The position numbers and the translations under genes were made by a program. A model generated the notes under the pieces. It worked only from the letters and a program-made list of their open reading frames with translations. It had not been told where the DNA came from and searched no databases. Shown piece after piece: positions 5,403 through 41,602 of a stretch of DNA of 43,634 bases. Source of the stretch: Reyranella sp. CPCC 100927 (lineage in GTDB: Bacteria; Pseudomonadota; Alphaproteobacteria; Reyranellales; Reyranellaceae); contig NZ_VOHA01000038.1 in NCBI RefSeq assembly GCF_007859315.1, forward strand, positions 1 through 43,634, given 5' to 3'. The stretch's first letter is position 1. Every line of letters starts with the position of its first letter.

Positions 5403-5582
5403 CGCCCCATCAAGACACATCCGATTCAGCCGCGGTTGTGAACGACATGGAAACGCAGCGCCGAACTCGCCGTTTCGCCTCTCACGGGCAATCTCCCGAC
5501 GCGTCTGGAATGAAAGTGCACGTGATCAAGTACCGCCAGCGGCGGCCACGCGCGCGGTCCAGCATCGCTGCTGATGATCGGG

Positions 5583-5987
5583 CTACGCCATCTGGAGCTG
5601 ACGCGCTCTGCCGATGCTGCATTCGGGCGCTTGGCGTTCGGGCGACGGTTGATGGGCTGCGGCGCAATCGGCGCTGCGCTTGCTCGCCAGCTTGCAGAAC
5701 TGCGTAGCGATCAGATCGACGGTGTACCTGGTTTCACCATCTTCGTATGAGCCTTCGCACAGACGCCCCGTCACCAGCACGAGATCGCCGTCGTTGACGT
5801 GCTGCATGATGTAGGCCTGCACGTTTTCAGGAAGGACGGTGACGGTGTTCCAGTGCGGTTGGTCAACATAGGAGCCGTCGCGCTGCTGGACCCTGTAGTT
5901 GGCGCATATCGACACCCTTGTCGTAGCGCCGACCGTGGTGACATGGCCAACGCGGCCCAGAATGCGAAACTCAGCCTCGTTTATCAT
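5583..5987 (-). CDS. Single-stranded DNA-binding protein-like (OB fold), 134 aa
   Basis: The first 100 residues follow the SSB OB-fold pattern: NEAEFRILGRVGHVT, then TRVSICANYRVQQRDGSYVD, HWNTVTVLPENVQAYIMQHV and GDLVLVTGRLCEGSYEDGET, matching strands and the 'G..v.v.G+l....y.d..g' motif of the family. Housekeeping SSB ends in an acidic DDDIPF-type tip that recruits partners. This one ends RARQLQMA, so the tip is absent. It is therefore more likely an accessory SSB, of the kind seen on mobile elements, than the essential copy. The start at 5987 has a GGAGCTCC element just upstream. Confidence 0.8.
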   Translation of the reverse strand: MINEAEFRILGRVGHVTTVGATTRVSICANYRVQQRDGSYVDQPHWNTVTVLPENVQAYIMQHVNDGDLVLVTGRLCEGSYEDGETRYTVDLIATQFCKLASKRSADCAAAHQPSPERQAPECSIGRARQLQMA

Positions 5988-6327
5988 AGCGGAGCTCCCT
6001 CGTACTGCTCACCTGTGTGAGCCTCGTCAAATGGCCAGGGATGCCTGCGGTGCCATTGTTGATGTCCGCCGCACGGCAACAACGACACTGCTTTCAGTTA
6101 ACATATCAAACATATGTCTATGCTCCTGTCGCCGCAGACTGGAATTGCGGGACGGCAAAGTCCAATCGGTAAGTTTTGAGCCACTAATCGGACTCGGTTA
6201 TCAATGCGTCAACCAGCAGGATTAAGTCGATCGCGGGCGGCCGCACCGGCGGCAGAGACTACGGCGCTGCAGAGCCGGCATCGGAAAGACAATCTGCAGT
6301 CCGTCGAGATCAAGCTGTGCGAGGACA
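5988..6327. other. 340-bp intergenic region upstream of the SSB-like gene
   Basis: This is leader DNA for the SSB-like gene (leftward) and the tail of the LysR gene. A perfect 6-bp stem with a 4-base loop, GCTCACCTGTGTGAGC, occurs at 6007-6022, some 20 bp upstream of the SSB start codon, where it would fall in the mRNA leader. A locally AT-rich segment at about 6098-6120 (TTAACATATCAAACATATG) is a plausible promoter area. No gene is supported here. Confidence 0.4.
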
Positions 6328-7311
6328 TCATGTTCCCGTGGAAGCCCGGCGTGTCGAGCCACGAACTGGCGGCTGGCGATGAGATGCCAACTCGGCGGCG
6401 ATCTTCCACATGGTCGCCGTCGCCGGATGCCCCTCACCTTGAGCGCGTAGCAAGACGAGGCCGGTCTCGGCATCCAAGCCCTCGATGGGGCGACTGACCA
6501 TCGGCGCCAGGCCAGCGAGATGCGATCGACCAAACCAGCCCAGGCTTATCGCCGGCACACGCTTAACCGCGCCATAGCGCTCGACTGCCAGCGCATTGCG
6601 TTCCGGTGGACGGGTGAGGGTACCACCCGCAGAGCGCACGAATTGCAGGATCGCAGTGATCAGTGCGACGCCGTACGCGCGATCGAACATTGCGATCCGC
6701 ATTTTCTTCAGCGCGGACAGCGGCAGGACCGCATGGCGGCTGGCAGGGTGCTCCCGCGGCAGGAGAACCTCCACTCGGCGGCGGCGTAGAACAAGGCGTT
6801 CGATTTCCGTCACTGACGCGCTATGGGGGTCGAGCGGCGAATATGTCACCGCGCCACCCAGCATCGGCTCGATCAGCAGTGCGAGATCTATTTCGCGCCG
6901 CGCAAGAGCCGCGCGCAGTCGCGCATCCGTGTCATTGGCAACGCGCAGTGGGATGTCAGGCCGCTGCAGAATGAAACGATCCAGAAGGTTGACCCGCTCG
7001 GCGACGAGCATTGTCTGGACGGTGGCACCGATGGCCAGCTGATTGGTCTGGATCGCGCGCGCTGTATTCCTGGCGATCTCCGTCTCGAACAACATACGCC
7101 GGGCATTGCCAAGAAAGAGACGGCCCTGCACCGACAATTCGACGACGCGACTCGTGCGGTTGAACAGCGGAAACCCAAGAAGCCGCTCGAACTCCCTGAT
7201 TTGCGCCGAAAGCGCCGGCTGCGACACTTGGAGACGCGCGGCCGCGCGGCCGAAAGAGCGTTCTTCGGCGACGGCCACGAAAGCGCGATATGGCTTGGCG
7301 TCAATATCCAT
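6328..7311 (-). CDS. LysR-family transcriptional regulator
   Basis: The 327-aa protein starts at the ATG at 7311 (MDIDAKPYRAFVAVAEERSF). Residues about 1-60 form the LysR winged helix-turn-helix, with SFGRAAARLQVSQPALSAQI and then FERLLGFPLFNRTSR, a textbook match. The remainder is the periplasmic-binding-protein-like effector domain (LAIGATVQTML, ALARREIDLALLIEP). Length is slightly above the usual 290-310 aa through an Arg/Ser-rich tail (RGSTRRASTGT). LysR regulators usually control a divergent neighbour. Here the divergent gene, 387 bp away, is a short TetR-type protein, so the target is unclear. Confidence 0.88.
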   Translation of the reverse strand: MDIDAKPYRAFVAVAEERSFGRAAARLQVSQPALSAQIREFERLLGFPLFNRTSRVVELSVQGRLFLGNARRMLFETEIARNTARAIQTNQLAIGATVQTMLVAERVNLLDRFILQRPDIPLRVANDTDARLRAALARREIDLALLIEPMLGGAVTYSPLDPHSASVTEIERLVLRRRRVEVLLPREHPASRHAVLPLSALKKMRIAMFDRAYGVALITAILQFVRSAGGTLTRPPERNALAVERYGAVKRVPAISLGWFGRSHLAGLAPMVSRPIEGLDAETGLVLLRAQGEGHPATATMWKIAAELASHRQPPVRGSTRRASTGT

Positions 7312-8153: not shown

Positions 8154-10055
8154 TCAGTTCCGCAACGCTGTTTCGATCACGGGCAGGTACAGCAGGAACG
8201 TCGTGCCGCGTCCGACCGCGCTGTCGACGCTCATGAAGCCGCCCGATTGATGAACGAAGCCGTAGACCATGGCGAGTCCCAGGCCGGTGCCCTGGCCTTC
8301 GTCCTTGGTCGTGAAGAACGGCTCGAAGATGTGGGCCTGCACGTCGGGCGTCATGCCGGCGCCGGTGTCGCGTACGGCAATCTCGATCCATGCGCCGGCA
8401 CGCAGGTGCGGCCGGGGTTCGACATCCGCCGGGGTCAGGACACGCCGAGACGCCGCCACATGCAGTTCGCCGCCCTCGGGCATGGCATCGCGGGCATTGA
8501 CCGCGAGATTGAGGATCGCCGTCTCGAACCCGCTGCGATCGAGCCGGCATCGCGGCAGGCCCTCGTCGACATCGAGGCGGAAACGGATATGGCTTGGCAC
8601 GACGCTCGACAACAAACGCGCAAGATCGTGCAGCAGGACATCGATGGCCATTTCCGTCGGTTCCAGCGGCCGCTGCCGCGCCACCATCATGAGGCGCGAC
8701 ACGACGTCGGCGCCCCGCTCGGCCGCCGTGATCGCCGTCGTGATCTTGCGCTGGTGCGGCGAGTCCGGCGACAGCTCGTCCGCCAGGACCTCCAGCTTGG
8801 CCATGATGATGGCCAGGATGTTGTTGAAGTCGTGCGCGATGCCGCCGGTGAGCTTGCCGAGCGCCTCGAGCTTCTGGCTTTGGCGCAGGCTCGCCTCGGC
8901 CTGCGCCAGCTGCACCTCGGCGCGGCGCTGGCGGGTGATATCCTTCGCCACCACCAGCCGGGCGCGCTGGCGGCGGAAGCCAATCGACGCCGACGTGATC
9001 TTGTTCTCGGTGATCGACCCGTCCTTCATGACATGCCGCCAGACGCCGCGATCATGGGCGACACCGTCATCATCGACGATCGTTGTCACGAATTGCTTGA
9101 GGCGAGGCCGATCCTCGGCCGGCAGAAGATCGAATATCGTCAGTTTGCGAAACTCGGCCGTCGTGTAGCCGTAGGCATTGCGGGCGGCTTCGTTGGCCTC
9201 GAAAATCCGCAACGTGTCGCGGTGGTGTACCCACATCGCGTCGGGATTCTTCTCGAACAAGACCCGGAAACTGGCGGCGCTCTGCTGCAGATGTTCGAAC
9301 ACCAGGGTGCCAATTCCTGCCGTCAGCGCAAAAATGGCGACGCCGATCACGATCGTGGCGAACGCGCCAGACGGTATGCCGGGTGGGGCATGCAGGTCGC
9401 CGTCCGTGATGCACATCGCGTTCATCAGGAAGAGGTGCACGCCACCGATGGCGACAGCCAGGAGCAGCGGGCTGGCGAAATGCTGGATGGCGGTCGCCCG
9501 CTGCGAGCCCGAGTGGTTGGGGCGGAACCGGACCAGAAACGCGGCGATGGTGAGCGCTACAGGTGCAACAAAGGACGCACACAGCAGCAACAGATCGTAG
9601 CGGATCAGCACGCCCGGCCGCAGCGCCGCCACGGCGCCGTAGTACGTCGCGCCGATTCCCAGGCCCATGACCGTTCCGGCCACGAGGGCTCGGGGAATCA
9701 TGGCGGCAGGGTGCACCAGGACGCGCAACGCCAGGCCGGTCGCCAGCATGGCCGGGATGGCCGCGATGCCGGCCGCGATCGGGTCGTATGTCCCCGTCAC
9801 CGGTTCCATGTGCGACGACATCGTCACGAAGTGCGCCGACCAGATGCCGCCGCCCATGACGATCGCGCCGCCCACCAGCCACCACAGGCGTCGTGTCCCG
9901 TCGCGCCGTTCGACAAGTCGGCCGGCCAGCTCCAGGAAGGCGAAACTGGCAAGTGCGGCGATGGCGTAGGGGAAGATGTCCAGTGTGTGGGCGCGAATCG
10001 CCACCAGGTTTTCAACCGGACTGCACTCGGAACTGAACAACGCCGCGAGGTCCAT
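8154..10055 (-). CDS. MHYT-PAS sensor histidine kinase, 633 aa
   Basis: The N-terminal ~260 residues are seven-helix-like membrane segments with MHYT-type elements (GIWSAHFVTMSS, LGIGATYYGAVA, GVHLFLMNAM), a domain thought to sense gases or redox through a metal. Next is a PAS domain at about 270-390 (FRVLFEKNPDAMWVHHRDTL, YGYTTAEFRKLTIFDLLP). Then the kinase: H-box LGKLTGGIAHDFNNILAIIM with the phospho-acceptor His in 'AHDFNN', N-box NLAVNARDAMPEGG, G1 DTGAGM, F-box FEPFFTTK and G2 GTGLGLAMVYGF. There is no attached receiver and no response regulator next door, so its partner is elsewhere. The H-box type is that of HWE/HisKA_4-like hybrid-family kinases. Some MHYT residues are non-consensus. 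Confidence 0.9.
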   Translation of the reverse strand: MDLAALFSSECSPVENLVAIRAHTLDIFPYAIAALASFAFLELAGRLVERRDGTRRLWWLVGGAIVMGGGIWSAHFVTMSSHMEPVTGTYDPIAAGIAAIPAMLATGLALRVLVHPAAMIPRALVAGTVMGLGIGATYYGAVAALRPGVLIRYDLLLLCASFVAPVALTIAAFLVRFRPNHSGSQRATAIQHFASPLLLAVAIGGVHLFLMNAMCITDGDLHAPPGIPSGAFATIVIGVAIFALTAGIGTLVFEHLQQSAASFRVLFEKNPDAMWVHHRDTLRIFEANEAARNAYGYTTAEFRKLTIFDLLPAEDRPRLKQFVTTIVDDDGVAHDRGVWRHVMKDGSITENKITSASIGFRRQRARLVVAKDITRQRRAEVQLAQAEASLRQSQKLEALGKLTGGIAHDFNNILAIIMAKLEVLADELSPDSPHQRKITTAITAAERGADVVSRLMMVARQRPLEPTEMAIDVLLHDLARLLSSVVPSHIRFRLDVDEGLPRCRLDRSGFETAILNLAVNARDAMPEGGELHVAASRRVLTPADVEPRPHLRAGAWIEIAVRDTGAGMTPDVQAHIFEPFFTTKDEGQGTGLGLAMVYGFVHQSGGFMSVDSAVGRGTTFLLYLPVIETALRN

Positions 10056-10214
10056 AGGGCCTTTCAGGGCTCAGAGCGCACCGGCTGAAAACGATGTGAT
10101 CAAATCATTTGCATTCGAAGTATAATGCACAATGGAGCCCAGGAACACAGGGCTGTCAATTCCCGCGACGCTCGGATGGCGATCGCGGGCGGCGATCCCG
10201 GCGCGCGCTGTGCT

Positions 10215-11147
10215 TCACACCGCTTCGGCGCGGGTGCGCTCGACCAGGAGGTGGGCCGCCGTACGGAAGGCGTCGAAGAAGGAAGACAGGTCGTCGACGC
10301 CCAGCCGTTTCCTGTAGCCGGGTGCCGACTTGTTGGAGAACGCCCAGGCACCGCCGCCAGGATTGATCTCCAGCAGGTGCAGGCCGCCATCCTTGTCGCG
10401 CAGGATATCGCAGGCCTGCAGCGCCACCGTCGGCATGGCGCGCCAGGCGGCGGCAGCCAACGCCAGCATGGCCGGATCGCGGGTGACGTGCGCCGTCATG
10501 TCCGGCGGTGCCGGCATGTAGTCAGCCGGTTTGAAGGGCGCGCGCGACGGGTCCAGCATCAGCGGCCGGGTCGACTGGCGCCAGTAGGAGAACAGCGGCA
10601 CGCCGAACAAGGTCAGCACGCGGCAGGTCATGGCATGGCCGCAGTCGACGAATGTCTGCGCGATCATCGGCGCGTATCGGCCCAGATGATCGGCCGGATA
10701 GTCCGATGGCGCGCGATAATGCACGCGATCGGTCGGCAGCAGCTCGATATTCTGGCCCCAGGACGCCAGTGCGTAGGATGGCTTTACGATCACATAAGGA
10801 CCGTAGGTATCGCGGGAGAGCACGGTCTGCGGACCGATCTCCTCGAAGGCCGGCACCGGCAGGCCCGCTGCGGCCAGGCGGCGCATCTCCTCCAGCTTGG
10901 ACATCGGCTGGCCGGCATAGAGCCGGCCGCGGCGCGGACGAAAGTCCAGCAGACGGACGGGCGAGAAGATCAGCGACGGACGCTGCGCGGCCTTGCGGCT
11001 TGTCACGGACGACCGCGACGGATTGGAAACGATGAAGACCTCGATATCCGGCGCCATGCTCTCGGCATGGGTTTTGATGGCGTGGAAGTCGGCGATGTCC
11101 TGCCAGTCCGGTGTGTGAACCAGGACCAGGTTGCGGCTCGGCGTCAT
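10215..11147 (-). CDS. ATP-grasp enzyme, coupled to a glycosyltransferase
   Basis: The 310-aa protein starts at the ATG at 11147 (MTPSRNLVLVHTPDWQDIAD), which overlaps the upstream stop by four bases (ATGA). ATP-grasp features are visible: a nucleotide-binding lysine in YGPYVIVKPSYALASWGQN, the QTFVDCGHAMTCRVLTLFG strand pair, and the metal-binding end GGLHLLEINPGGGAWAFSN with Glu and Asn. ATP-grasp enzymes activate a carboxylate as acyl phosphate and join it to an amine, hydroxyl or thiol. They include peptide ligases such as RimK and the graspetide macrocyclases. The exact substrate cannot be read. The gene is third in a 58-aa peptide, GT2-TPR, ATP-grasp unit, which makes the peptide or its glycan a possible substrate. 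Confidence 0.8.
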   Translation of the reverse strand: MTPSRNLVLVHTPDWQDIADFHAIKTHAESMAPDIEVFIVSNPSRSSVTSRKAAQRPSLIFSPVRLLDFRPRRGRLYAGQPMSKLEEMRRLAAAGLPVPAFEEIGPQTVLSRDTYGPYVIVKPSYALASWGQNIELLPTDRVHYRAPSDYPADHLGRYAPMIAQTFVDCGHAMTCRVLTLFGVPLFSYWRQSTRPLMLDPSRAPFKPADYMPAPPDMTAHVTRDPAMLALAAAAWRAMPTVALQACDILRDKDGGLHLLEINPGGGAWAFSNKSAPGYRKRLGVDDLSSFFDAFRTAAHLLVERTRAEAV

Positions 11148-12250
11148 GGCGCCGGCCCGCCCAATGCCGATGCCTTGAGACGATACGTCATCTCGTCCGG
11201 CGCCAGGCGCGCCGCTTCGGCGAAGTGCGCCGCGGCATCCCGTCGGTGTCCCAACCGAAGGCACGCGACGGCCGCCAGTTCGCAGGCTCTGTCGCCGAAG
11301 ATGCGGCGGTCGAATGCCAGCACCCCGTCCTGCAGGGTGTCCGGATCGATGGCGCGCAGCTTCTGGGCGACGCGCAGCGCCGCCCGCGGGCGGCCGGCAT
11401 CGAGTGCGGCACGTCCCAGCAGGAACCAGAGCGCATAGTCGTGCGGCAGGATCGCCAGGCCTTCGGCGATCGCCGGCACGGGATCACCGCCGCCTTGCCG
11501 TTCGGCGCGGGCCAGAAGCTGGCAGCACAGGCTTGCCGCAGCGCGCTGCTCGTCCGACTCCTGCCGCCGGGCACCGGCGATCCCCGATCGCGCCGCCGCC
11601 ATCGCCGGCTGCAGCCGCCCCAGCGCGACCAGTGTTTCGGCGAGATGGTGCCAGAGAAAGGCGCGGTCGGGATCATCGCGCACGGCCTGCTCCAGCAGCG
11701 CGAGGTTACGGGCGTGCTTATGCCCCTGTCCGCCGTCGTAGCCGAGATGATCGATCCGCACGGATGTCTGCCGGATCGGCAGGCCCTCGCGGGTACTGAT
11801 CGTTCGGATGGCGGGGACCATCGTCTCATGGATGCGGCCGGCAAAGCGCAGGCGCGGATCGCTGCGGAACAGCCGCCATTCGCGGTAGCGCGTGTAGCCC
11901 GTCTTGGGCCGCAGCCGCACGAGGCCCGCGATGGCGCCCGGGTCGATATAGTCGGCCAGGACACCGCCCTCCGGCAGGACCAGGCGCTCGTCGGCGTCGA
12001 TATAGAGGACCCAGCTGCCGGACACCCTTGCCAGCGCGGCGTTGCGCGCCGCCGCAAAATCATCGCGCCAGGGCTGATGGTACAAACGTACGCCAGCACG
12101 GGTTGCGATGTCGACGGTGCCATCCGTCGAGCCGGTGTCGACCACGACGATGTCGTCGACCCGGCCCTGCAAGGACTCCAGGCACCCCGGCAGGAACGAC
12201 TGTTCGTTGCGAACAATCATCGCCGCCGACACGGTTACGGGGCTGCTCAT
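11144..12250 (-). CDS. GT2 glycosyltransferase with C-terminal TPR-like repeats
   Basis: The 368-aa protein starts at the ATG at 12250. A GTG at 12271, one base past the peptide stop, is an alternative start. Residues about 1-220 form a GT-A family 2 domain: AAMIVRNEQSFLPGCLESL, VDDIVVVDTGSTDGT, WRDDFAAARNAAL and the DxD-type VLYIDADERL. Residues 220-368 are helical pairs resembling tetratricopeptide repeats (AFLWHHLAETLVALGRLQPA, YALWFLLGRAALDAGRPRAA). GT2 fused to a helical repeat domain is the layout of peptide S-glycosyltransferases such as SunS, but is also common in cell-surface glycan loci. The donor sugar is unknown. It sits between the 58-aa peptide and the ATP-grasp gene, reading in the same direction with 22-bp and -4-bp spacing. 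Confidence 0.85.
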   Translation of the reverse strand: MSSPVTVSAAMIVRNEQSFLPGCLESLQGRVDDIVVVDTGSTDGTVDIATRAGVRLYHQPWRDDFAAARNAALARVSGSWVLYIDADERLVLPEGGVLADYIDPGAIAGLVRLRPKTGYTRYREWRLFRSDPRLRFAGRIHETMVPAIRTISTREGLPIRQTSVRIDHLGYDGGQGHKHARNLALLEQAVRDDPDRAFLWHHLAETLVALGRLQPAMAAARSGIAGARRQESDEQRAAASLCCQLLARAERQGGGDPVPAIAEGLAILPHDYALWFLLGRAALDAGRPRAALRVAQKLRAIDPDTLQDGVLAFDRRIFGDRACELAAVACLRLGHRRDAAAHFAEAARLAPDEMTYRLKASALGGPAP

Positions 12251-12272
12251 CGGCGCCCCGTCGCTTGACACG

Positions 12273-12449
12273 TCAGGTGTTGCCGGTGAACGCCAGGGCT
12301 TCGGTGATGCTCATCGCGTCGATCGGGAAGGTCACGACCCGCGGCGCCTCATAGGCCTTGTCCGCCGTCAGGGCGCGCAGCTTTTCCGGGATCTGCGGCG
12401 GGGGTGAGCTGACCGCTTCTGCTGAAGTCGCTGTTGAAATGACGGTCAT
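12273..12449 (-). CDS. Small peptide, 58 aa, possible RiPP precursor
   Basis: The start is ATG 12449 (MTVISTATSAEAV), with GAAGG upstream. An in-frame GTG at 12482 would add 11 residues. Codons in the second half are strongly G/C at position three, like real genes here. The N-terminal half is Ala/Ser/Thr/Pro-rich (SSPPPQIPEKLRALTADK). Then comes AYEAPRVV, with Tyr33, Pro36 and Val38 spaced as in the YxxPx[L/V] element that RRE domains read in lasso-peptide leaders. A 20-residue tail, TFPIDAMSITEALAFTGNT, follows. It has no cysteine and no signal peptide or membrane helix. It heads the unit with the GT2-TPR and ATP-grasp genes, and a stand-alone PqqD-like RRE protein is 1.8 kb away. Precursor status is an inference. 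A small adaptor protein is the alternative. Confidence 0.55.
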   Translation of the reverse strand: MTVISTATSAEAVSSPPPQIPEKLRALTADKAYEAPRVVTFPIDAMSITEALAFTGNT

Positions 12450-12493
12450 CGACGTGCCTTCGTTGCTGTACTCACCGACCACAGAACCGTAGC

Positions 12494-13450
12494 ATGGGCA
12501 CTTCCATTGTCAAACGCTCCAGGGGAGCGACACGCACCGTGCTGCTGCTGTTCTATGATGTGCCGTGGGGCTTGTCTCTCGATGTGCCTTCCACCCCGGA
12601 CATCACGATCTCGACCGACCGCAACCGCTACGACGACGCAGACGCGGTCGTTTTCCACCCGCCGGAATGGACGCGCGCGCGCATCCGGGCCCGCCGGCCC
12701 TGGGCGTGGGATCTCCATCCTGCCAAGCGGCCGGGGCAGCTCTGGATCGCCAGCACGATCGAATGCCAGGACCACTACCCGATCATGCGCGACGTGCGCT
12801 TCATGCGCCATTTCGACCTGACGATGACCTATCGCCGCGACTGCGACGTGCCGGCGACATATGCCATCCCGCACGGTTCGGTGCCGGCGATGATCGCGGC
12901 GCTGCGGCGGCCACCGCCACCAAAGTCCGCCGACGCCTTGCTCGCCACTTTCATCTCGAGCGCGGTCGATACCAGCAACCGGCGCGCCTACCTCTACGAG
13001 CTGGCGCAATACATGGCGATCGACTCGTACGGCACGTTCATGAACAACCGTGCGCTGGCGTCCGACGCCGGCCGGCCGTCCAAGCTGGACGCGATCTCGA
13101 CGTACAGGTTCACGGCCGCGTTCGAGAACGCGCGCGCGGTGGACTACGTGACCGAAAAGTTCTTCGACCCCCTGTGGGCGGGCTCCATTCCGGTCTACTT
13201 TGGGGCGCCCAACGTCGCGGCGTTCGCGCCCGGCGATCACTGCTATATCGATGCGTCGGATTTCCCCGATCCCCGCCAGCTGGCCGAGCACCTGCGCGCC
13301 ATTGCCGGCGACGATGAGCGCTACGGCCGCTTCTTCGACTGGAAGCAGCGGCCGCTGCGCGACAGCTTCCTGAAGCTGATCGAAACCGAAAGCCGCAGCC
13401 CGGTCGAGCGCCTGTGCGCCCTGTTGCGGCAACGCTTCAGGCGACCGTGA
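12494..13450 (+). CDS. GT10 fucosyltransferase-like glycosyltransferase
   Basis: The 318-aa protein carries the hallmark C-terminal block of family 10 (alpha-1,3/4-fucosyltransferases) at about residues 204-240: [20 protein letters not shown], then [17 protein letters not shown]. The Glu and Lys of 'VTEKFFD' and the following 'G.P.Y.GAPN' bind GDP-fucose in characterised members. The N-terminal half is variable, as usual for the acceptor domain. There is no membrane anchor. It starts 44 bp from the divergent 58-aa peptide gene, and its stop overlaps the 3' end of the damaged gmd by 14 bp, tail to tail. It would need GDP-L-fucose (or a related GDP-sugar). The local gmd looks inactive and no fucose synthase gene is in the window, so donor supply must come from elsewhere. 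Confidence 0.85.
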
Positions 13451-14168
13451 TCACCAATTCATGTTCCTCCCCAGCGAAGCTGGGGGAGGAAGTGCTCCGG
13501 GCCGCGGCGCGGTCGGCGTCGACCATCTCGGCCACGAGATCCTCGAAGCGGGTGCGATGCCACCATCCCAGGCGCTGCCGCGCCTTGGTCGGATCGCCGA
13601 CGAGGTGGTCGGCCTCGGTCGGACGCCTGTAGGTCGGATCGATTGCGATCAGAACCTCGCCGCTGCGCGCGCAACAGCCGGTCTCCTCGACCCCGGTGCC
13701 ACGCCACACGATGGGACGCCCGATGCGGGCGAAGGCCAGCTCGGCGAACGCGCGGACCGAATGCGCTTCGCCGGTCGACAGCACGTAGTCGTCAGGCTGG
13801 TCCTGCTGCAGCATCAGCCACATGCCCTCGACATAGTCGCGGGCATGGCCCCAGTCGCGCCGGGCATCGAGATTGCCGAGATAGAGGCGCTGCTGGCGGC
13901 CGGCCTCGATGGCTGCCACGGCGCGCGTGATCTTGCGGGTGACGAACGTCTCGCCGCGCAGCGGCGATTCGTGGTTGAACAGGATGCCGTTGGAGGCATG
14001 CAGGCCGTAGGCCTCGCGGCGGTAGAGGTGGTCGATGCGCTGGGTGTTGAGCGAGGAGGCGCGGCGCTTGATGCCGTGCACGATATAGTCACGGGCCAGC
14101 AGAAAGTCGGCGAGATAGGCGCCGTCCTGTCCGGTGATCCCCGTGATCAGAGCGACCTTGTCGGCCAT
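13437..14168 (-). CDS. gmd: GDP-mannose 4,6-dehydratase with internal deletion, probably inactive
   Basis: The start is ATG 14168 ([20 protein letters not shown]), giving 243 aa against about 320-350 in intact GMD. The NAD-binding GITGQDG motif and [19 protein letters not shown] are present. The frame then jumps straight to [19 protein letters not shown], which in intact enzymes lies about 110 residues later. The missing block includes the dinucleotide-fold second half, the Ser/Thr-Glu catalytic residues and the YxxxK motif, so dehydratase activity is not expected. The rest ([39 protein letters not shown]) is well kept and the frame is open. The last ~19 residues ([19 protein letters not shown]) come from a family C repeat. 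The normal product, GDP-4-keto-6-deoxymannose, is the precursor of GDP-fucose, which fits the GT10 neighbour. Confidence 0.85.
13464..13491. repeat. Short inverted repeat, family C, inside the gmd 3' end
   Basis: TTCCTCCCCAGCGAAGCTGG continuing GGGAGGAA forms a 12-bp stem with a GAA loop. The same hairpin occurs at the phnM/phnZ-like junction (36748-36824). Here it lies within coding sequence and specifies the final residues of the shortened gmd product. Confidence 0.75.
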
Positions 14169-14293
14169 CGCTTGCCATGTCCCTGTGCCATGCCCACTCA
14201 TGATACAGGACCAGCCGGCATTCGCGTTAATCGACTTGAACACTCCTGCCGGTTGATGCCCAATGCCTTGCCAACAGCGCGAGGGCGTACGCC

Positions 14294-14554
14294 GTGTCCT
14301 ACCGTCGCATCGACGGCCTTGAGTGCAATGAGCTGCCGGAGGGTTGTGTCGTCTACGACCAGGCCCGCGAACAGGTTCACTACCTCAACCGGACGGCGAC
14401 GGCCGTGCTCGACCTGTGCGACGGCAACCGCGATGCCGATGCCATCGCCGATCTGTTGCAGAGCGTCTTCAGCCTGCCGACACCGCCGCGATCGGATGTC
14501 GCGGATTGCCTGGCGGCACTGGCCAGCCAGGGCCTGATCGAACACCGCCCCTGA
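14294..14554 (+). CDS. Stand-alone PqqD-like protein (RiPP recognition element fold)
   Basis: The 86-aa protein starts at GTG 14294, chosen for the GAGGG six to ten bases upstream. The sequence has the PqqD pattern: [20 protein letters not shown] (beta hairpin with 'vv.d...e.v..LN.ta'), [21 protein letters not shown] (helix-turn-helix-like) and [17 protein letters not shown] (last helix). PqqD folds bind the leader of a ribosomal peptide and present it to modifying enzymes. Free PqqD-like proteins serve PQQ, lasso and other RiPP pathways. There is no pqqA/C/E, radical SAM or lasso cyclase gene in the window. It diverges from gmd and is followed 14 bp later by a small membrane protein. The 58-aa peptide with a YxxPxV element 1.8 kb away is the obvious candidate partner. 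Confidence 0.75.
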
Positions 14555-14568
14555 CCGATGCGACGAGG

Positions 14569-14781
14569 ATGAAGCCATTGCCATCGAGCATGCTCAAAAT
14601 GATCGCGGCGGGCACGATCGTCGGCGTGATCCTGGGCATCCTGGACAACTACGCGGTCCTCGCGAACGGCACGACGCAAGAGGTCGCGCGGGCGGTGGGC
14701 GGCACCGTGGCCTACGCGCTGTTCGGCGCCTTCGCCGGGGCTGCCACCTGGCATGTCCTGCAATCCAGCCGGCGATCCTGA
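14569..14781 (+). CDS. Small two-helix membrane protein, 70 aa
   Basis: The start ATG 14569 follows CGACGAGG, a usable ribosome-binding site, 14 bp after the PqqD-like stop. MKPLPSSMLK is followed by a hydrophobic helix (MIAAGTIVGVILGILDNYAV), a short polar loop (LANGTTQEVARAVGG) and a second helix (TVAYALFGAFAGAATWHVL), ending in QSSRRS. No family is recognised. Its position suggests co-transcription with the PqqD-like gene. A membrane partner or immunity-type role for that locus is conceivable but not shown. Confidence 0.55.
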   Translation: MKPLPSSMLKMIAAGTIVGVILGILDNYAVLANGTTQEVARAVGGTVAYALFGAFAGAATWHVLQSSRRS

Positions 14782-18956: not shown

Positions 18957-19112
18957 GTGGCGGTGCGTGCAACGCTGATCGTCGGCGACATCATATCGTC
19001 ATGCGGCACCAACAACCTTATGCAGTGTCGAGGTTCCAAACGCGCGCGTATCGTTGACCGACGATAACGCACCGGCCCTTCACAACACGGTGCGGTTCGG
19101 GAGAAACGGCCC

Positions 19113-20519
19113 ATGAGCAGCACCACGCCGGAAGCGGTGGGTGGACTGACGCGGGATGTTGCGCCTCATCCCGCTGACGTCGGCCCGCTCGAGCAACAGC
19201 ACTTGCAGTCCGCCAACTATCGCGCCGTCGCCGACGACAGCCGCATCACGCGCACGCACTGGCATATCGCCACCGCCAACGGCCTGGGTTGGGGCTTCGA
19301 CGGCATGGACGGCGTGATCTTCGCGCTGATCGCGCCGCTGGTGATCCAGGAGTTCTCGCTGACCGTGCCCGAGTACCGCTCGGGCCTGCAGATCTCGCTC
19401 TTTATCGGCATCGCCGGCCTCTATGTCTGGCCGTGGCTGGCCGATCGCTATGGCCGGCGCACCCTGCTGGCGGTCAACATCGCGCTGTTCTCGCTGCTGA
19501 TGCCCGTCGTCGCCTTGTCGCCCACGTTCGCGGTGTTCGTGATCGCGCGATCGGCGGTGGGCTTTGCGCTGAACGGCGAATGGTCGCTGGGCTCGATGCT
19601 GGTGGCGGAGACCTGGCCGGCGCGACTGCGCGGGCGCGTCATCAGCATCAACCGCGCGGCGTGGTGCTTCGGTGCGTCGCTGGCCGGCGCCATCACCGGC
19701 ATCGCGGCCGCCGCCTGGGGCTGGCGCGTGGCGGTCATGGTGCCCGGCGTCATCGCGCTGCTGGCGATCTACGTGCGCGCCACCTGCCCGGAGTCGCCCT
19801 ACTGGGTGCGGGCGCAGGACCGCAAGGCGCGCGTGCGCGTCGCCCTGCAGCACGGCATGCCGGTGAGCGACGAGGACCGTGCCTGGTTCCTGAAGGCCGA
19901 CAAGGTCGGGCTCAGCCAGCTCTTCCTGCCCGACACCCTGCCCTCGACCCTGGTGGCGCTGTTCGTGGCCTGCTGCAGCACCTGCATCTTCGGCACGGTG
20001 GGCGGCTGGATGCCCTATTACCTCGCCACCGAGAAGCACTGGTCGACCGAGGAGTACAGCTGGTTCTACGTGTGCTGGGGCATCGCCGGCTTCTTCGGCC
20101 TGTGCCTGGCCGGGTGGCTCGCCGACCGCGTCGGGCGGCGCGTCGGCTTCATCGTCACCCTGCTGGAGGGCGCCGTTTTCCTCACCGCCTGGATCTACAC
20201 CGACAGCCACCTGCTGCTGTGGCTGTTCGGCCTGGCCTGGAGCTTCGGCTTCCTGGGCTTCTGGGGCCCCAGCACGGTGCTGACGGCCGAGATCTTCCCC
20301 ACCCGCATCCGCGGCGTCGCCAACGGCGCGGTGTGGGCGGTGGCGTATTTCGTCGGCTTCGTGCTGTGGCCGTTCGTCACCGTGGCCCTGCAGCAGGCGA
20401 CCGGCTCGTTCGCGCTCGCCTTCCTGTGCATCCCGGTGTTCATGGTCCTGATGGCGCTGGGTGTCTGGCTGTGGGTGCCGGAACATTCCGGCAAGGACCT
20501 CAACCAGATCAGCGTCTGA
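19113..20519 (+). CDS. MFS transporter, 468 aa
   Basis: A long hydrophilic N-terminus (about 55 residues) precedes twelve membrane helices. The first-loop signature is DRYGRRTLLAVNIALF after helix 2 and is repeated in the second half as DRVGRRVGFIVTLLEG, the usual internal duplication. FALNGEWSLGSMLVAETWPA and TAEIFPTRIRGVANG are typical of the sugar/aromatic-acid porter branches, which import substrates with protons. The substrate cannot be told from sequence. No catabolic operon is attached, and the nearest gene (DUF1036) looks unrelated. Confidence 0.88.
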   Translation: MSSTTPEAVGGLTRDVAPHPADVGPLEQQHLQSANYRAVADDSRITRTHWHIATANGLGWGFDGMDGVIFALIAPLVIQEFSLTVPEYRSGLQISLFIGIAGLYVWPWLADRYGRRTLLAVNIALFSLLMPVVALSPTFAVFVIARSAVGFALNGEWSLGSMLVAETWPARLRGRVISINRAAWCFGASLAGAITGIAAAAWGWRVAVMVPGVIALLAIYVRATCPESPYWVRAQDRKARVRVALQHGMPVSDEDRAWFLKADKVGLSQLFLPDTLPSTLVALFVACCSTCIFGTVGGWMPYYLATEKHWSTEEYSWFYVCWGIAGFFGLCLAGWLADRVGRRVGFIVTLLEGAVFLTAWIYTDSHLLLWLFGLAWSFGFLGFWGPSTVLTAEIFPTRIRGVANGAVWAVAYFVGFVLWPFVTVALQQATGSFALAFLCIPVFMVLMALGVWLWVPEHSGKDLNQISV

Positions 20520-20667
20520 GCCCGGATCCATTCTTGACGGGCGGCAATTCGTCGCGTAAAAGTGAGCGAACACTCTTGACACCGACTTGATAGTCAATTA
20601 CTTAGCCTTCGTAAGGTCGGTGAGCGGGTGGTGACCCAATTGCTGCACCGGGACGGAGGTTTTGACG

Positions 20668-21093
20668 ATGCGTTGGGGTGTATGGGCGGCGATCGCCGGG
20701 TTGATGGTGTTGCCAGGCACGACATGGGCGCAGAGCGGCGTGACCGCGATTCGCGTCTGCAACCAGACCAGCAAGCAGATCTCGGTCGCCAAGGCGTCGG
20801 CCACGGGCCAGACCGAGAATGGCAAGCCGATCTTCATGTCGCAGGGCTGGTACACGGTGGCGCCCAAGGATTGCGCCGTGCTGTGGAGCGGGCCGTTCTC
20901 GACCCGCTATTACTACGTCTACGCCGAGTCGGCGAACTCCCACTGGTCGGGCAACTACCCGATGTGCGTGTCGGACAAGGCCTTCCGTATCGCCGACAAC
21001 CAGTGCGGCCAGGGCTACCGCCGGCGCATGTTCAACGAGATCGATATCTCGGGCCGCTCGGGCGTGTTCACCTACACGTTCCAGGGCAGCTGA
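20668..21093 (+). CDS. DUF1036 family exported protein
   Basis: The product is 141 aa from ATG 20668, eight bases after GGAGG (the TTG at 20662 is too close to it). A signal peptide (MRWGVWAAIAGLMVLPGTTW ending AQ) is followed by the DUF1036 pattern: IRVCNQTSKQISVAKASA, GWYTVAPKDCAVLWSGPFST, RYYYVYAESANSHWSGNYPM and conserved cysteines (VCNQ, KDCAV, PMCVS, NQCGQ). Family members are alphaproteobacterial envelope proteins of unknown function. It converges on the EamA exporter gene with 5 bp between stops. Confidence 0.82.
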   Translation: MRWGVWAAIAGLMVLPGTTWAQSGVTAIRVCNQTSKQISVAKASATGQTENGKPIFMSQGWYTVAPKDCAVLWSGPFSTRYYYVYAESANSHWSGNYPMCVSDKAFRIADNQCGQGYRRRMFNEIDISGRSGVFTYTFQGS

Positions 21094-21098
21094 ACAGG

Positions 21099-21977
21099 CT
21101 ATCGCTGCGATGACGCGCGTGCCGCCGGCCTGGCCTGCTGCACGCGCTGGCTGAGCCAGACGCTGCCCAGCACGACGGCCATGCCGGCGATCTGCGCTGG
21201 CGTGAGGCCCTGGTCCAGGACCCACCAGCCCAGGATCACGGCGGTCATCGGGCTGAGGAAGCCCAGCGGCGACACCACCGACGGCTCCAGCCGCGCGATG
21301 CCGCGGAACCACAGGATGTAGGTCAGCGCCGCGCCGATCAGCCCGAGCCAGGCGAAGCCCAGCAGGTTGGCCGCGGTCGGCATCGGCAGCATCGGCTCCA
21401 TCAGCACCACGACCGGCACCAGCAGCAGGCCGCCAGCGGTCAGCTGCCAGGCGGTGAAGGTCAGCAGCGACACTGGCGGCTGCCAGCGGCGGCTCAGCAC
21501 GGTGCCGGCCGCCATCGCCACCGCGCCGGCGAGACCGGCGGCGACGCCGATCGGATCGAGTGCCGCGTTGGGCGTGAGGATCAGCAGCGCCACGCCGGCC
21601 ATGCCGGCGATCGCCGCGACGATGGCCAGCACGCGCACGGGGCTGCCCAGGAACAGGCGCGCCAGCAGCAGCACCGCCAGCGGCTGGATGGCGCCCACCG
21701 TGGCGGCGACGCCGCCGGGCAGCCGGTAGGCAGCGATGAACAGCATCCACCAGAAGATCGAAAAATTCAGCGCACCCAGGATGAAGACGCGGCCCCACCA
21801 GATCCCGGTCGGCAGCTGGCGCACCAGCAGCAGAAGCAGCAGGCCCGCCGGCAGGGCACGCAGCAACGATACGGTGAGCGGGTAGCCTGGCGGCAGCAGT
21901 TCCGTCGTCACCAGATAGGTGCTGCCCCAGATCGCCGGCGCGATCGCGGTCAACAGCAGATCGCCGCTGCGTGACAT
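21099..21977 (-). CDS. EamA/DMT-family transporter
   Basis: The protein is 292 aa with ten predicted helices in two EamA halves: DLLLTAIAPAIWGSTYLVTT at the start, and in the second half GVAAGLAGAVAMAAGTVLSR with LEPSVVSPLGFLSPMTAVIL and LGSVWLSQRV. The 'P.....lR...a..ll' and 'P...all....lge'-type family features are recognisable. DMT proteins of this group export amino acids, metabolites or drugs. It is divergent from a MarR regulator across two palindromes, which implies that this regulator represses it and that its substrate is the inducer. Confidence 0.88.
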   Translation of the reverse strand: MSRSGDLLLTAIAPAIWGSTYLVTTELLPPGYPLTVSLLRALPAGLLLLLLVRQLPTGIWWGRVFILGALNFSIFWWMLFIAAYRLPGGVAATVGAIQPLAVLLLARLFLGSPVRVLAIVAAIAGMAGVALLILTPNAALDPIGVAAGLAGAVAMAAGTVLSRRWQPPVSLLTFTAWQLTAGGLLLVPVVVLMEPMLPMPTAANLLGFAWLGLIGAALTYILWFRGIARLEPSVVSPLGFLSPMTAVILGWWVLDQGLTPAQIAGMAVVLGSVWLSQRVQQARPAARASSQR

Positions 21978-36747: not shown

Positions 36748-36824
36748 TCTTCCTCCTCCCCACGCAGTGGGGAGGTGCCCCGATACGGCCACCTCCCCCA
36801 GCGAAGCTGGGGGAGAGGAGAATT
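36748..36824. repeat. Inverted repeat, family C, between phnM and the phnZ-like gene
   Basis: TCTTCCTCCTCCCCACGCAG with TGGGGAGGTGCCCC and ACCTCCCCCAGCGAAGCTGG with GGGAGAGGAGAA form two small hairpins that also pair with each other. The right edge touches the phnM stop codon. It interrupts an otherwise tightly coupled operon. Confidence 0.8.
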
Positions 36825-37960
36825 CACGCGACCCGCTTGCCGTCGCGCCAGACCGTGCGGACCACGGGCTGGCCGTCGATCAGGCGCACGCGCACGAGAT
36901 CGGCGCGGCGGCCGACCTCGATGGCGCCGCGGTCTTTCAGGCCGACCGCCTCGGCCGGCGTCTGGGACACCGCGGCCATCGCCTTGGGCAGGTCGATGCC
37001 AGGGATCTCGCACGCCAGCTTGAAGGCCGACTCCACGAGGCTGGTCGGCACATAGTCGGACGACACGATGTCGAGCAGGCCCTGCTGCGCCAACGCATTG
37101 GCCGAGACATTGCCGGAGTGCGAGGCACCGCGGATCACATTGGGCCCGCCCATCACGACCTTCATGCCGCCGTCGCGCGACAGCCGCGCGGCCTCGACGG
37201 TCGTCGGGAACTCGGCCACCACCATGCCGTCGGCGAGCGCCTCGGCAACGTGCTCGGGCGTGCCGTCGTCGTGGCTGGCCATCGGCATGCGGCGCGCCTG
37301 ACAGATCGCCACGACAGCGCGCCGGTTCTCGATGCTGTGCTGGGCGCCGCGCGCCCGCGCGAGGTCGAGATAGGCATCGAGTTCGTCGTCGTTGAAGCCG
37401 TTCTTGCCCTTGTAGTACTCGCGGTACTTCTCCGGATTGACGAACTGCCGCTGACCCGGCGTGTGATCCATGATCGATACCAGCTGCACGCGCGGATCGT
37501 CGATCAGGCTTTCCAGCATCTGCGGCATCTGGGGGTAGCTGACCTCGCAGCGCAGATGCAGCAGGTGTTCGCTGCGGAACAGGCCGTTGTCGCGCGCCGT
37601 GCGCGAGCCGCTCAGCATCTCGTCGAGTGCGTCGAGCCTGATGTCATGGTCCTGCATCGAGCCCAGCGATACGGCATCGAACACGGTCGTGATGCCGGCG
37701 GCGGCGATCTGCGCATCATGCGCCAGCGCCGCCGACACCGCCGGCCAGCGCACGCCTGGCCGTGGCGCGAAATGGCGCTCCATGTTGTCGGTATGCAGTT
37801 CGACCAGGCCCGGGATCAGGTAGTCGCCGTCGAACGCCTCACCGGCTGTCGAGCGCCTGTCCTCGATCGTCGCGATGATGCCGCCGCGCACCACGACCGT
37901 GCCGCGGACGACAGCCTGCGGCGTCACGATCTGCGCGTCGGTCAGTATCAATTCATCCAT
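36824..37960 (-). CDS. phnM: Alpha-D-ribose 1-methylphosphonate 5-triphosphate diphosphatase
   Basis: The protein is 378 aa from ATG 37960. Amidohydrolase metal sites characteristic of PhnM: IPGLVELHTDNMERHFAPRP (HxDN), MDHTPGQRQFVNPEKYREYY, RRMPMASHDDGTPEHVAEAL and GASHSGNVSANALAQQGLLD, with DIVSSDYVPTS carrying the final Asp. It removes pyrophosphate from ribose 1-phosphonate 5-triphosphate, giving the substrate of PhnJ. Its start overlaps the phnL stop by one base (TGATG). Confidence 0.94.
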   Translation of the reverse strand: MDELILTDAQIVTPQAVVRGTVVVRGGIIATIEDRRSTAGEAFDGDYLIPGLVELHTDNMERHFAPRPGVRWPAVSAALAHDAQIAAAGITTVFDAVSLGSMQDHDIRLDALDEMLSGSRTARDNGLFRSEHLLHLRCEVSYPQMPQMLESLIDDPRVQLVSIMDHTPGQRQFVNPEKYREYYKGKNGFNDDELDAYLDLARARGAQHSIENRRAVVAICQARRMPMASHDDGTPEHVAEALADGMVVAEFPTTVEAARLSRDGGMKVVMGGPNVIRGASHSGNVSANALAQQGLLDIVSSDYVPTSLVESAFKLACEIPGIDLPKAMAAVSQTPAEAVGLKDRGAIEVGRRADLVRVRLIDGQPVVRTVWRDGKRVA

Positions 37961-38670
37961 CAAGCCACCTCCGCCAACCGTGGCGTCAACTCGAAGATGC
38001 GGGTCGCCAGCGCCTCGCGCGCCGTCGCGTCATGCAGGATCGCGAGAATCGCCGCACCGTCGCGGCGCGCCTCCTGGATCAGGTCGATCACGACGGCGCG
38101 GTTCGCGTCGTCCAGCGACGCCGTCGGTTCGTCAAGCAACAGGATCGGATAGCGCGCGATGAAGACATGCGCGATATTGACGCGCTGCTGCTCGCCGCCC
38201 GAGAACGTCGCCGGCGGCAGATCGAACAGTCGCGACGGGATGTTGAGGCGCTCCAGCAGTGCCGCGGCGCGTTTGCGCGCGTCGGCTTCCGTCACGCCGC
38301 GGGACAGCAGCGGTTCGGCCACGATGTCGATGGCCGACACGCGCGGGATCACGCGCAGGAACTGGCTGACATAGCCCAGGGTGCCACGGCGCAGTTCATG
38401 CACCTGTCGCGGTGCGGCGCCGACCAGTTCTACCGTTGCGTCATTGTGCGCCACGCGGATGCTGCCGCTGTCGGCAGCATAGTTGCCGTAGACGCAGCGC
38501 ATCAGCGTGCTCTTGCCGGCGCCGGACGGGCCGCGCAGCACCACGCACTCGGCCGGGAACAGGTCGAGGTCGACACCGCGCAGGGCATCCAGCCGCACGC
38601 CGCCGCGCAGATGCAGGGTGAAGGTCTTGCGCAGGGAGCGGATGCGCAGCGCAGGTTCGTCGGCACGCAT
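37960..38670 (-). CDS. phnL: Phosphonate C-P lyase ABC-type protein PhnL
   Basis: This 236-aa ABC ATPase starts at ATG 38670 (MRADEPALRIRSLRKTFTLH). A GTG at 38676 that overlaps the phnK stop is an equally good start. Walker A is LRGPSGAGKSTLMRCVYGNY, the signature FSGGEQQRVNIAHVFIARYP and Walker B ILLLDEPTASLDDANRAVVI. The family-specific 'RCVYGNYAADSG' and 'LGYVSQFLRVIPRVSAIDIV' match PhnL. It has no membrane partner: PhnL and PhnK associate with the C-P lyase core and use ATP in the reaction cycle rather than for transport. Confidence 0.93.
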   Translation of the reverse strand: MRADEPALRIRSLRKTFTLHLRGGVRLDALRGVDLDLFPAECVVLRGPSGAGKSTLMRCVYGNYAADSGSIRVAHNDATVELVGAAPRQVHELRRGTLGYVSQFLRVIPRVSAIDIVAEPLLSRGVTEADARKRAAALLERLNIPSRLFDLPPATFSGGEQQRVNIAHVFIARYPILLLDEPTASLDDANRAVVIDLIQEARRDGAAILAILHDATAREALATRIFELTPRLAEVA

Positions 38671-38672
38671 GG

Positions 38673-39449
38673 TCACACCGAAAGGGCGGAGGAGACGAGG
38701 AGCTGGGTGTAGGGATGATGCGGATCGTCGAGCAGCCGGTCGGTCAGGCCGCCCTCGACCACCTCACCGCCCTTCATCACCAGCAGCCGATCGGCCAGCA
38801 GGCGCGCGACACCGAGATCGTGGGTCACGATCACGGCCGACACGCCGATCTCGCGCACCAGGCGGCGCAACAGGTCGAGCAGGCGCGCCTGCACGGAGAC
38901 GTCGAGGCCGCCGGTGGGCTCGTCCATCAGCACCACGCGCGGGTGCGTCACCAGGTTGCGCGCGATCTGCAGGCGCTGCTGCATGCCGCCGGAGAAAGCG
39001 CGCGGCGGATCATCGACCCGCGTCGTGTCGATCTCGACATGGGCCAGCCAGTCGACCGCCGCCTGGCGCAAATTGCCGTAGTGGCGATGGCCCAGCGCCA
39101 TCAGGCGCTCGCCGACATTGCCGCCGGCGCTGACATCCAGCCGCAACCCGTCGCGCGGATTCTGGTGCACGAAGCCCCATTCGGTGCGCAGCAGGCGCCG
39201 GCGCTCGGCCTCGGCCAGCATCAGCATGTCGACGGCCGGGCCCGCCGCCGTGCGGTACAGCACCTCGCCGCTGTCGGCCGGCAGGCGACCGCCGACGCAG
39301 TTCAGCAGGGTGGTCTTGCCCGATCCCGACTCGCCCACGATGCCCAGCACCTCGCCGGGCCACAACTCGAAGGCGACATCGCGCACCGCCGTGCGGACGC
39401 CGAAGCGCTTGGTGAGGCCGCTCACCTCGAGGATGGGTTGCTCTTTCAT
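38673..39449 (-). CDS. phnK: Phosphonate C-P lyase ABC-type protein PhnK
   Basis: The 258-aa protein has Walker A GIVGESGSGKTTLLNCVGGR, signature FSGGMQQRLQIARNLVTHPR and Walker B VVLMDEPTGGLDVSVQARLL, with the oligopeptide-transporter-like 'HPYTQLLVSSAL' end seen in PhnK. The conserved GFVHQNPRDGLRLDVSAGGN is a PhnK block. PhnK docks on the PhnGHIJ core. ATG 39449 has a strong AGGAGGTGACCC ribosome-binding site whose 5' edge is the end of a family A repeat. Confidence 0.93.
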   Translation of the reverse strand: MKEQPILEVSGLTKRFGVRTAVRDVAFELWPGEVLGIVGESGSGKTTLLNCVGGRLPADSGEVLYRTAAGPAVDMLMLAEAERRRLLRTEWGFVHQNPRDGLRLDVSAGGNVGERLMALGHRHYGNLRQAAVDWLAHVEIDTTRVDDPPRAFSGGMQQRLQIARNLVTHPRVVLMDEPTGGLDVSVQARLLDLLRRLVREIGVSAVIVTHDLGVARLLADRLLVMKGGEVVEGGLTDRLLDDPHHPYTQLLVSSALSV

Positions 39450-39458
39450 GGGTCACCT

Positions 39459-39535
39459 CCTGGGAGCGCGGGCGTCCCGCCCGCATCGGCGCGGAACGCC
39501 GAGACATGAGCGGGCCAGAGGCCCGCGCTCCCAGG
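39459..39535. repeat. Inverted repeat, family A, between phnJ and phnK
   Basis: CCTGGGAGCGCGGGCGTCCC and GGGCCAGAGGCCCGCGCTCC with CAGG are the arms; the spacer is CGCATCGGCGCGGAACGCCGAGACATGAG, nearly identical to that of the copy at 33706. It fills most of the 125-bp gap between phnJ and phnK, where the operon would otherwise be compact. Confidence 0.85.
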
Positions 39536-39574
39536 GCGCCGAGTCCAATCCAACCAGACATGCTCTGTGGTTCA

Positions 39575-41601: not shown

Positions 41602-41602
41602 G

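Follow-up and report, generated by a model that had tools for sequence, protein, structure and literature searches.

A candidate system for the glycosylation of linear ribosomal peptides in Reyranella sp. CPCC 100927 and other Alphaproteobacteria

Gene content of the locus

The window analysed here is a stretch of 43,634 nucleotides from Reyranella sp. CPCC 100927, which forms an entire contig (NZ_VOHA01000038.1, referred to as C32) of a genome of 9.08 Mb in 81 contigs. Between positions 10215 and 14781 it carries the gene for a 58-amino-acid peptide, followed by genes for a family 2 glycosyltransferase with C-terminal tetratricopeptide repeats (GT2-TPR) and an ATP-grasp enzyme, with a GT10 fucosyltransferase and a stand-alone PqqD-like RiPP recognition element (RRE; RiPPs are ribosomally synthesized and post-translationally modified peptides) in close proximity. 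Homologues of the peptide and of these enzymes recur together in genomes of distantly related bacteria (genomes are labelled G, and fetched stretches or loci L), and the locus is considered to be probably engaged in modifying a linear ribosomal peptide, by glycosylation under the guidance of the RRE and by an ATP-grasp step. The features of the locus are as follows.

12449-12273, minus strand: 58-aa precursor-like peptide (ORF list, homologues)
12250-11144, minus strand: GT2-TPR glycosyltransferase (Pfam Glycos_transf_2, 5.8e-20, plus TPRs)
11147-10215, minus strand: ATP-grasp enzyme (homologues, profile search, tree)
12494-13450, plus strand: GT10 fucosyltransferase (Pfam GT10, 4.3e-32)
14294-14554, plus strand: stand-alone PqqD-like RRE protein, 86 aa (Pfam PqqD, 1.7e-10)
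13437-14243, minus strand: broken gmd-like ORF, GDP-mannose 4,6-dehydratase (Pfam GDP_Man_Dehyd, 7e-83, in two pieces)
14569-14781, plus strand: two-helix membrane protein, 70 aa

The open reading frames (ORFs) for the peptide, GT2-TPR, ATP-grasp, GT10 and PqqD-like proteins lie at the positions and on the strands claimed in the first-pass annotation of this DNA, with Pfam confirming the GT2, GT10 and PqqD assignments; the Pfam scan covered 40 window ORFs, a few of which are probably not real genes. The GT2-TPR gene is best started at ATG 12250, from which its homologues align, leaving 22 nt after the peptide stop codon, and its own stop overlaps the ATP-grasp start in the shared ATGA previously claimed and now confirmed in the sequence. 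The GT10 gene is divergent from the peptide gene, their start codons being separated by 44 bp.

The precursor-like peptide

The C-terminal part of the window peptide reads YEAPRVVTF, 14 further residues and GNT. Whether the short ORF is conserved had been left to be tested, and nine clear homologues from eight genomes (the window, L014, L017, L025, L026, L030, L038, L039 and L090) establish that it is. All nine contain YxxPx[VIM]x[ST][FYM], 14 residues (13 in L039), GN and a further one or two residues, with Y, P, G and N invariant in their alignment. The residues of the usual acceptor type present in all nine are the motif Tyr, the motif [ST] and the Asn of GN, and no others. Cys is absent from eight of the nine; the window peptide contains none, which excludes S-glycosylation for this peptide. 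The nine reach at least 64 bits against a profile (next different ORF, 21 bits) that was built from those same peptides, and the difference thus shows separation and is not independent proof. The window peptide has no match to any family in Pfam, NCBIfam or PHROGs.

The association of the peptide with the glycosyltransferase was assessed using a loose pattern, [YFW]xxPx[VILM], which occurs in a same-strand ORF of 35-133 aa no more than 400 nt upstream of 11 of the 12 GT2-TPR genes found; dinucleotide shuffles give an expectation of 0.85 of 12 upstream regions. A stricter pattern, derived from the same peptides on which it was tested, was seen 11 times against 0.004 expected from shuffles. Upstream of 35 ATP-grasp genes, seven belonging to the system and 28 outside it, the loose pattern was found four times and the strict one not at all.

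Since the peptide profile misses members (those of G594, G644, G526 and G618 were found only via their ATP-grasp or GT2-TPR neighbours), the peptide counts are lower bounds. The peptide matches of the class-wide scan with E values of 0.001-0.02, which account for seven of its eight positive genomes, look false: two are CutA-like ORFs, and others have no fitting ORF or contain stops. Candidates in G562, G614 and G457 were set aside likewise. The large scans for the peptide, ATP-grasp and GT2-TPR scored at most 16, 5 and 7 first-look candidates per genome, respectively.

The glycosyltransferases

The GT2-TPR protein matches the NCBIfam SunS model at 5.9e-20 and 71.5 bits, the cut-off being 350 bits, while in the PDB, among matches spanning the catalytic domain, its profile scores best with GmaR (3e-39) and SunS (2e-31). 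GmaR glycosylates flagellin and SunS glycosylates a peptide, and by sequence the window enzyme belongs with these two; its YIDADER stretch is conserved (alignment A12). A search of 249 genomes of the Labrys order gave 12 matches, ten of them strong. An [YF]xxP peptide lies immediately upstream in nine of the ten (the exception being G455), and PqqD lies within the fetched stretch in eight and elsewhere in G455 and G456. The weak matches in G701 and G623, with neither peptide nor PqqD, were rejected.

The remaining glycosyltransferases differ between loci and comprise GT10, NodZ, GT4 and Anp1 types. The window GT10 is the sole GT10 match of its genome and has homologues near the peptide in L025 (60 % identical, beside PqqD) and L038 (50 %). 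The only GT10 of the genome sits at the locus in G000, G455 and G704. Of the two in G540, one is at the locus; in G456 and G460 a single GT10 lies elsewhere, and G459, G804 and G594 have none. The presence of GT10 or NodZ near a peptide in six of seven genomes (none was seen for G804) suggests that fucose is among the sugars.

The RRE protein and the ATP-grasp enzyme

Against the PDB, the PqqD profile matches PqqD (5sxy, 6e-5) and, weakly, TfuB1 (0.08), a lasso RRE. PqqD homologues were found near the peptide in L017, L025, L026, L030, L038 and L039, and all seven genomes with a close ATP-grasp have PqqD no more than 2.5 kb from a peptide copy. Genomes contain one to four PqqD matches, one of which lies within 2.5 kb of the peptide in eight of nine genomes by the Pfam model; in the ninth (G594, L090), PqqD was missed by that model and found by tblastn. 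The chance product for this proximity, about 3e-23, assumes independent genomes, whereas related loci are not independent and the distance was chosen afterwards.

The ATP-grasp enzyme does not pass any Pfam or NCBIfam cut-off. In the PDB, its profile has weak matches to D-Ala-D-Ala ligases (E 3e-4); the enzyme is a distant relative of D-Ala-D-Ala ligase and RimK, and K122, D247, E260 and N262 are invariant. The ATP-grasp alignment scan revealed three Labrys loci (64-66 % identical) and more distant matches in metagenome-assembled genomes (MAGs) of Xanthobacteraceae (47 %) and Parvibaculum (38 %). In all seven genomes found to carry close ATP-grasps, the gene follows GT2-TPR immediately, and in six of the seven a homologous short ORF directly precedes GT2-TPR. 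The seven enzymes form one clade with a support of 100/100 in a 35-row tree, in which the window protein pairs with that of L038 (G704) at 93/89, under the tool's own threshold.

Among 397 genomes of the Labrys order, 21 had an ATP-grasp match at E <=1e-5. The six best matches (E <1e-165) are in system genomes; 24 of the other 25 matches listed fall within 20 fetched stretches, of which L090 (G594) is the sole one with GT2-TPR, PqqD and peptide. By its phylogeny, one ATP-grasp lineage has been recruited to the system, and L090 has a different lineage nearby. A single-sequence search of 385 genomes of the class matched the window, G394 and G387 (partially), and G394 was rejected as a system locus given surroundings without system genes. 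Plasmid records contained no ATP-grasp homologue. Tandem copies of the wider, otherwise solitary family occur without the peptide system in L071, L072, L084 and L087.

A C-terminal GN is found in nine of nine peptides from genomes with this ATP-grasp family and in one of 12 from kinase-type or other loci. Since GN goes with the ATP-grasp genomes, the peptide C-terminus is the likeliest site of ATP-grasp action, by a correlation drawn from few lineages.

Related loci and their distribution

In three Labrys loci (L013, L014 and L017), GT2-TPR lies immediately ahead of the ATP-grasp gene. A window-like short ORF precedes GT2-TPR in L014 and L017, in the latter with PqqD ahead of it, and none was seen there in L013; the MAG loci L015 and L016 contain no GT2-TPR, PqqD or peptide. 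A profile of the first three peptides revealed second loci, and further peptide searches gave G460, G704 and G804. In Labrys okinawensis (G455), a row of PqqD, GT10 and a peptide ending in TGNF (L025) lies 47 kb from the GT2-TPR/ATP-grasp pair on the same contig, while in Labrys KNU-23 a peptide ending in TGNT is accompanied by PqqD and a NodZ-like fucosyltransferase (L026). As judged from their gene content, these two loci show the peptide and the RRE to be the constant part of the system.

The full set of the window recurs in L038 (G704), with PqqD, peptide, GT2-TPR, ATP-grasp and a divergent GT10. L039 (G804) has GT4, PqqD, peptide, GT2-TPR and ATP-grasp, to which L017 and L030 add an Anp1-like transferase and NodZ, the NodZ match of L030 being split across two frames; L030 also combines its ATP-grasp with a diverged kinase-like gene that has no Pfam or NCBIfam match. 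The proposed co-occurrence of GT2-TPR, ATP-grasp and a short ORF was thus recovered in several genomes, where close pairs come with the ORF and mostly with PqqD. Pairs lacking the ORF had been named as evidence against the proposal; the close pairs have it, except that the pair in G455 has no ORF in front.

In eight of nine window-type loci (L013, L014, L017, L026, L030, L038, L039 and L090, not L025), a gene for an Omp25-like outer-membrane barrel is found no more than a few kb from those for the peptide, GT2-TPR or ATP-grasp. It is also present in L015 and in two of 19 control stretches, absent from the window, L040 and L122-L124, and not counted in the system. In L096 of Labrys KNU-23 (5459-6645, plus strand), PqqD immediately precedes an Anp1-like transferase that shares 81 % identity with the L017 enzyme, with no recognised peptide, and L095 contains a further PqqD of the same type.

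A putative phosphorylating sister branch

Three further GT2-TPR loci were found in G644 (L122), G526 (L123) and G618 (L124). L122 encodes a 91-aa peptide (10150-10425, minus strand) between PqqD and GT2-TPR, in which the 11 residues GVNCLNVASVT occur three times. L123 carries seven closely related precursor-like peptides in tandem (..FATPIVASFAMDGLKISKAQAQVANGSGV..; 10615-12384, minus strand) between GT2-TPR and an HprK-like gene, and L124 three tandem precursor-like peptides (8459-9099). HprK-like and NTP_transf_5 genes are present in G526, G618 and G540 (L123, L124 and L040), the NTP_transf_5 gene of L124 having been detected by tblastn. The L040 protein is labelled a kinase on NCBIfam matches under the cut-off (HprK_rel_B, 9e-8), and the others on similarity to it or to the L030 protein. 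None of G526, G618, G540 and G644 is among the 21 genomes with an ATP-grasp match.

Eleven peptides of these loci align (A13) around a common FxxPxVASFxMD and have no good NCBIfam match. Profile-profile comparison relates them to the window-type peptides with a probability of 80 % (E 1.5e-5, 40 columns), and our reading is that the loci with HprK-like and NTP_transf_5 genes may represent a phosphorylating sister branch of the window type.

Neighbouring genes

Two genes that the first-pass annotation had placed in the pathway are left outside it. The gmd-like ORF was correctly described as damaged: an in-frame segment of about 122 codons is missing when it is compared with another genomic copy, to which its DNA is 81-85 % identical. 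Contig C23 carries two gmd-fcl pairs (L002 and L003), so the supply of GDP-fucose need not depend on the broken gene, which may be a bystander or a relic of donor-sugar supply and is not counted in the system. The 70-aa two-helix membrane protein probably also lies outside the system, tblastn against the fetched loci having matched solely the window's own stretch (L001).

Further away, a phosphonate (C-P lyase) gene set occupies 36824-41667 on the minus strand (PhnI, PhnJ, two ABC ATPases and an amidohydrolase) and is accompanied by a GntR/UTRA regulator at 42736-43455. A short protein at 5583-5987 (minus strand) has a weak single-strand-binding (SSB) match (2.8e-6). The minus-strand ORFs 19080-20597 and 20602-21798 are without a Pfam match, other frames at those places having matched.

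Proposed pathway and alternative explanations

The earlier proposal of one ribosomal-peptide pathway with ligation and glycosylation holds for the conserved grouping of the genes, while its chemistry is what we infer from the enzyme families. What follows is accordingly a prediction as to how the RRE binds, which sugars are added and to which residue, what the ATP-grasp enzyme does, in what order the steps run and what is finally made. The stand-alone PqqD-like RRE would bind the 58-aa peptide at its YxxPx[VI]x[ST][FYM] strand and offer the C-terminal ~17 residues to the tailoring enzymes. GT2-TPR would attach the first sugar, and GT10, or NodZ-like, GT4 and Anp1-like transferases at related loci, would extend it or add sugars, probably including fucose from GDP-fucose supplied by the gmd-fcl pairs at other genomic sites. 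The ATP-grasp enzyme may join something to a carboxylate of the peptide, the likeliest place being the constant Gly-Asn at the C-terminus or a position close to it, and the expected final product would be a linear glycopeptide.

Several observations weigh against this proposal. The L090 peptide has no Ser or Thr after the motif, so a Ser/Thr acceptor in that region cannot be common to all members. Among the 40 window ORFs, neither a leader peptidase nor a dedicated exporter was recognised. The G804 genome lacks GT10, and NodZ is missing from its stretch. PqqD is not beside GT2-TPR in G455 and G456, and the peptide is also missing there in G455. In 19 of the 20 distant ATP-grasp stretches, no GT2-TPR or PqqD (tblastn) and no peptide (profile) were found; the family being mostly solitary elsewhere, its role here would reflect recruitment, and its substrate is guessed. 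Of the 76 genomes of its order, the window's alone was positive, so the locus is not core there; its kin belong to another, larger order group, which makes horizontal transfer of the locus likely.

An ordinary polysaccharide or surface-glycan cluster, with the short ORF arising by chance and PqqD an unrelated neighbour, would accommodate the glycosyltransferases, the gmd-like gene and the solitary distant ATP-grasps. It is nevertheless very improbable, as the motif and spacing of the ORF are fixed in nine sequences, a motif ORF precedes 11 of 12 GT2-TPR genes where 0.85 would be expected, and PqqD is within 2.5 kb of the peptide in eight of nine genomes by Pfam and in the ninth by tblastn. That the system is a decayed or simplified relative of linear polyphosphorylated peptide (LPP) or lasso-type clusters, with its phosphorylation branch lost, the remainder drifting and no product in the host, is highly unlikely: the window peptide, PqqD, GT2-TPR, ATP-grasp and GT10 are full length and align along their length with their homologues, whatever is suggested by the HprK-like and NTP_transf_5 genes of the sister loci L040, L123 and L124, the diverged HprK-like gene kept by L030 and the broken gmd of the window.

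The peptide might instead serve as a scaffold: an oligosaccharide or small molecule would be assembled at its C-terminus and later released, with the first block after GN added by the ATP-grasp enzyme. The presence of GN in nine of nine peptides with this ATP-grasp family (one of 12 in the kinase-type or other loci), the carboxylate-amine ligases that are its weak PDB kin, and the constancy of the peptide while glycosyltransferases swap are consistent with such a role. No peptidase or release enzyme was recognised among the 40 window ORFs, however, and the kinship with SunS and GmaR points to direct glycosylation of the peptide, which leaves the scaffold function unlikely and glycosylation of the linear peptide preferred.

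Comparison with known systems

The locus has the general feature of RRE-dependent RiPP pathways, namely an RRE, a short precursor and tailoring enzymes together in a conserved cluster. Glycocins of the SunS type, in which a GT2 with helical repeats lies beside a Cys-bearing bacteriocin peptide, share the arrangement of glycosyltransferase and peptide with the window, but the window peptide has no Cys, an RRE is present and the SunS match is far under the cut-off. The mycofactocin pathway includes a PqqD-like RRE and a GT2, whereas the window has a different peptide and, as claimed earlier, no radical SAM enzyme or lasso cyclase among the ORFs scanned. Graspetides and other ATP-grasp RiPP maturases share an ATP-grasp beside a short peptide; the match of the window enzyme to TIGR04187 is weak (E 0.041), and graspetide core motifs were not searched for.

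In the open-licence literature, which leaves out most subscription journals and all preprints, no RRE-dependent pathway with glycosyltransferases, fucosyltransferases included, as the main tailoring enzymes was found. RRE-glycosyltransferase fusions outside known classes are mentioned in the RRE-Finder paper and a 2025 RRE paper. Lasso peptides with a discrete B1 RRE share the YxxP leader motif and a stand-alone PqqD-like RRE with the window, but no cyclase (PF00733) or transglutaminase-like B2 peptidase was found among the 40 window ORFs (the remainder of the genome was not searched). For discrete lasso-type RREs, the published motif is [Y/W]xxPx[L/V/I/F/A] (PMC13381572; PMC12710340), and YxxPx[VL] is given for the RREs of both lasso peptides and linear polyphosphorylated peptides (LPPs; PMC13381572), which bind the leader strand through YxxP.

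According to Popov et al. (2026; PMC13381572), LPPs are restricted to Bacillota, have the consensus YxxPxVLxHQxIxFETxxS and are encoded in clusters with an SpI leader peptidase and an MsbA-like transporter. They are the closest published family to the window system. Both have a discrete RRE (14294-14554 in the window) and the YxxPx[VL] motif (YEAPRV in the window), no macrolactam cyclase and surroundings rich in glycosyltransferases. In contrast, the HQ/FET part of the consensus is absent from the window peptide, and GT2-TPR, ATP-grasp and GT10 take the place of the LPP kinase and NTP-transferase. As neither an HprK-like kinase nor an NTP transferase (NTP_transf_5) was recognised among the 40 window ORFs, the window is not filed as an LPP locus, whereas L040, L123 and L124 share both genes with LPPs. 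Neither an SpI leader peptidase nor an MsbA-like transporter was seen in the 40 window ORFs, the only part of the genome searched for them; the two window ABC ATPases, at 37960-39449, sit in the phosphonate gene set.

The earlier view that the locus matches no known class stands insofar as the features tested set it apart from lasso peptides, glycocins and LPPs, but requires the qualification that LPPs (PMC13381572) are close in logic. The system has a fair chance of being a RiPP class of its own. The fuller proposal, an undescribed alphaproteobacterial class of RRE-guided linear glycopeptides with a constant peptide and RRE core, interchangeable GT2-TPR, GT10/NodZ, GT4 and Anp1 enzymes, an ATP-grasp that acts on the fixed Gly-Asn at the C-terminus, and a sister branch that phosphorylates and carries precursors in tandem (seven in L123), is put forward at even odds. 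If true, it would offer a compact gene set, open to testing, for programmable peptide glycosylation, and a starting point for asking what such linear modified peptides do. By its genes, the window system looks LPP-like in recruitment and linearity and different in chemistry, and the proposal, if true, would extend LPP-like logic from Bacillota to Alphaproteobacteria and link it to glycan enzymes related to those of Nod-factor synthesis.

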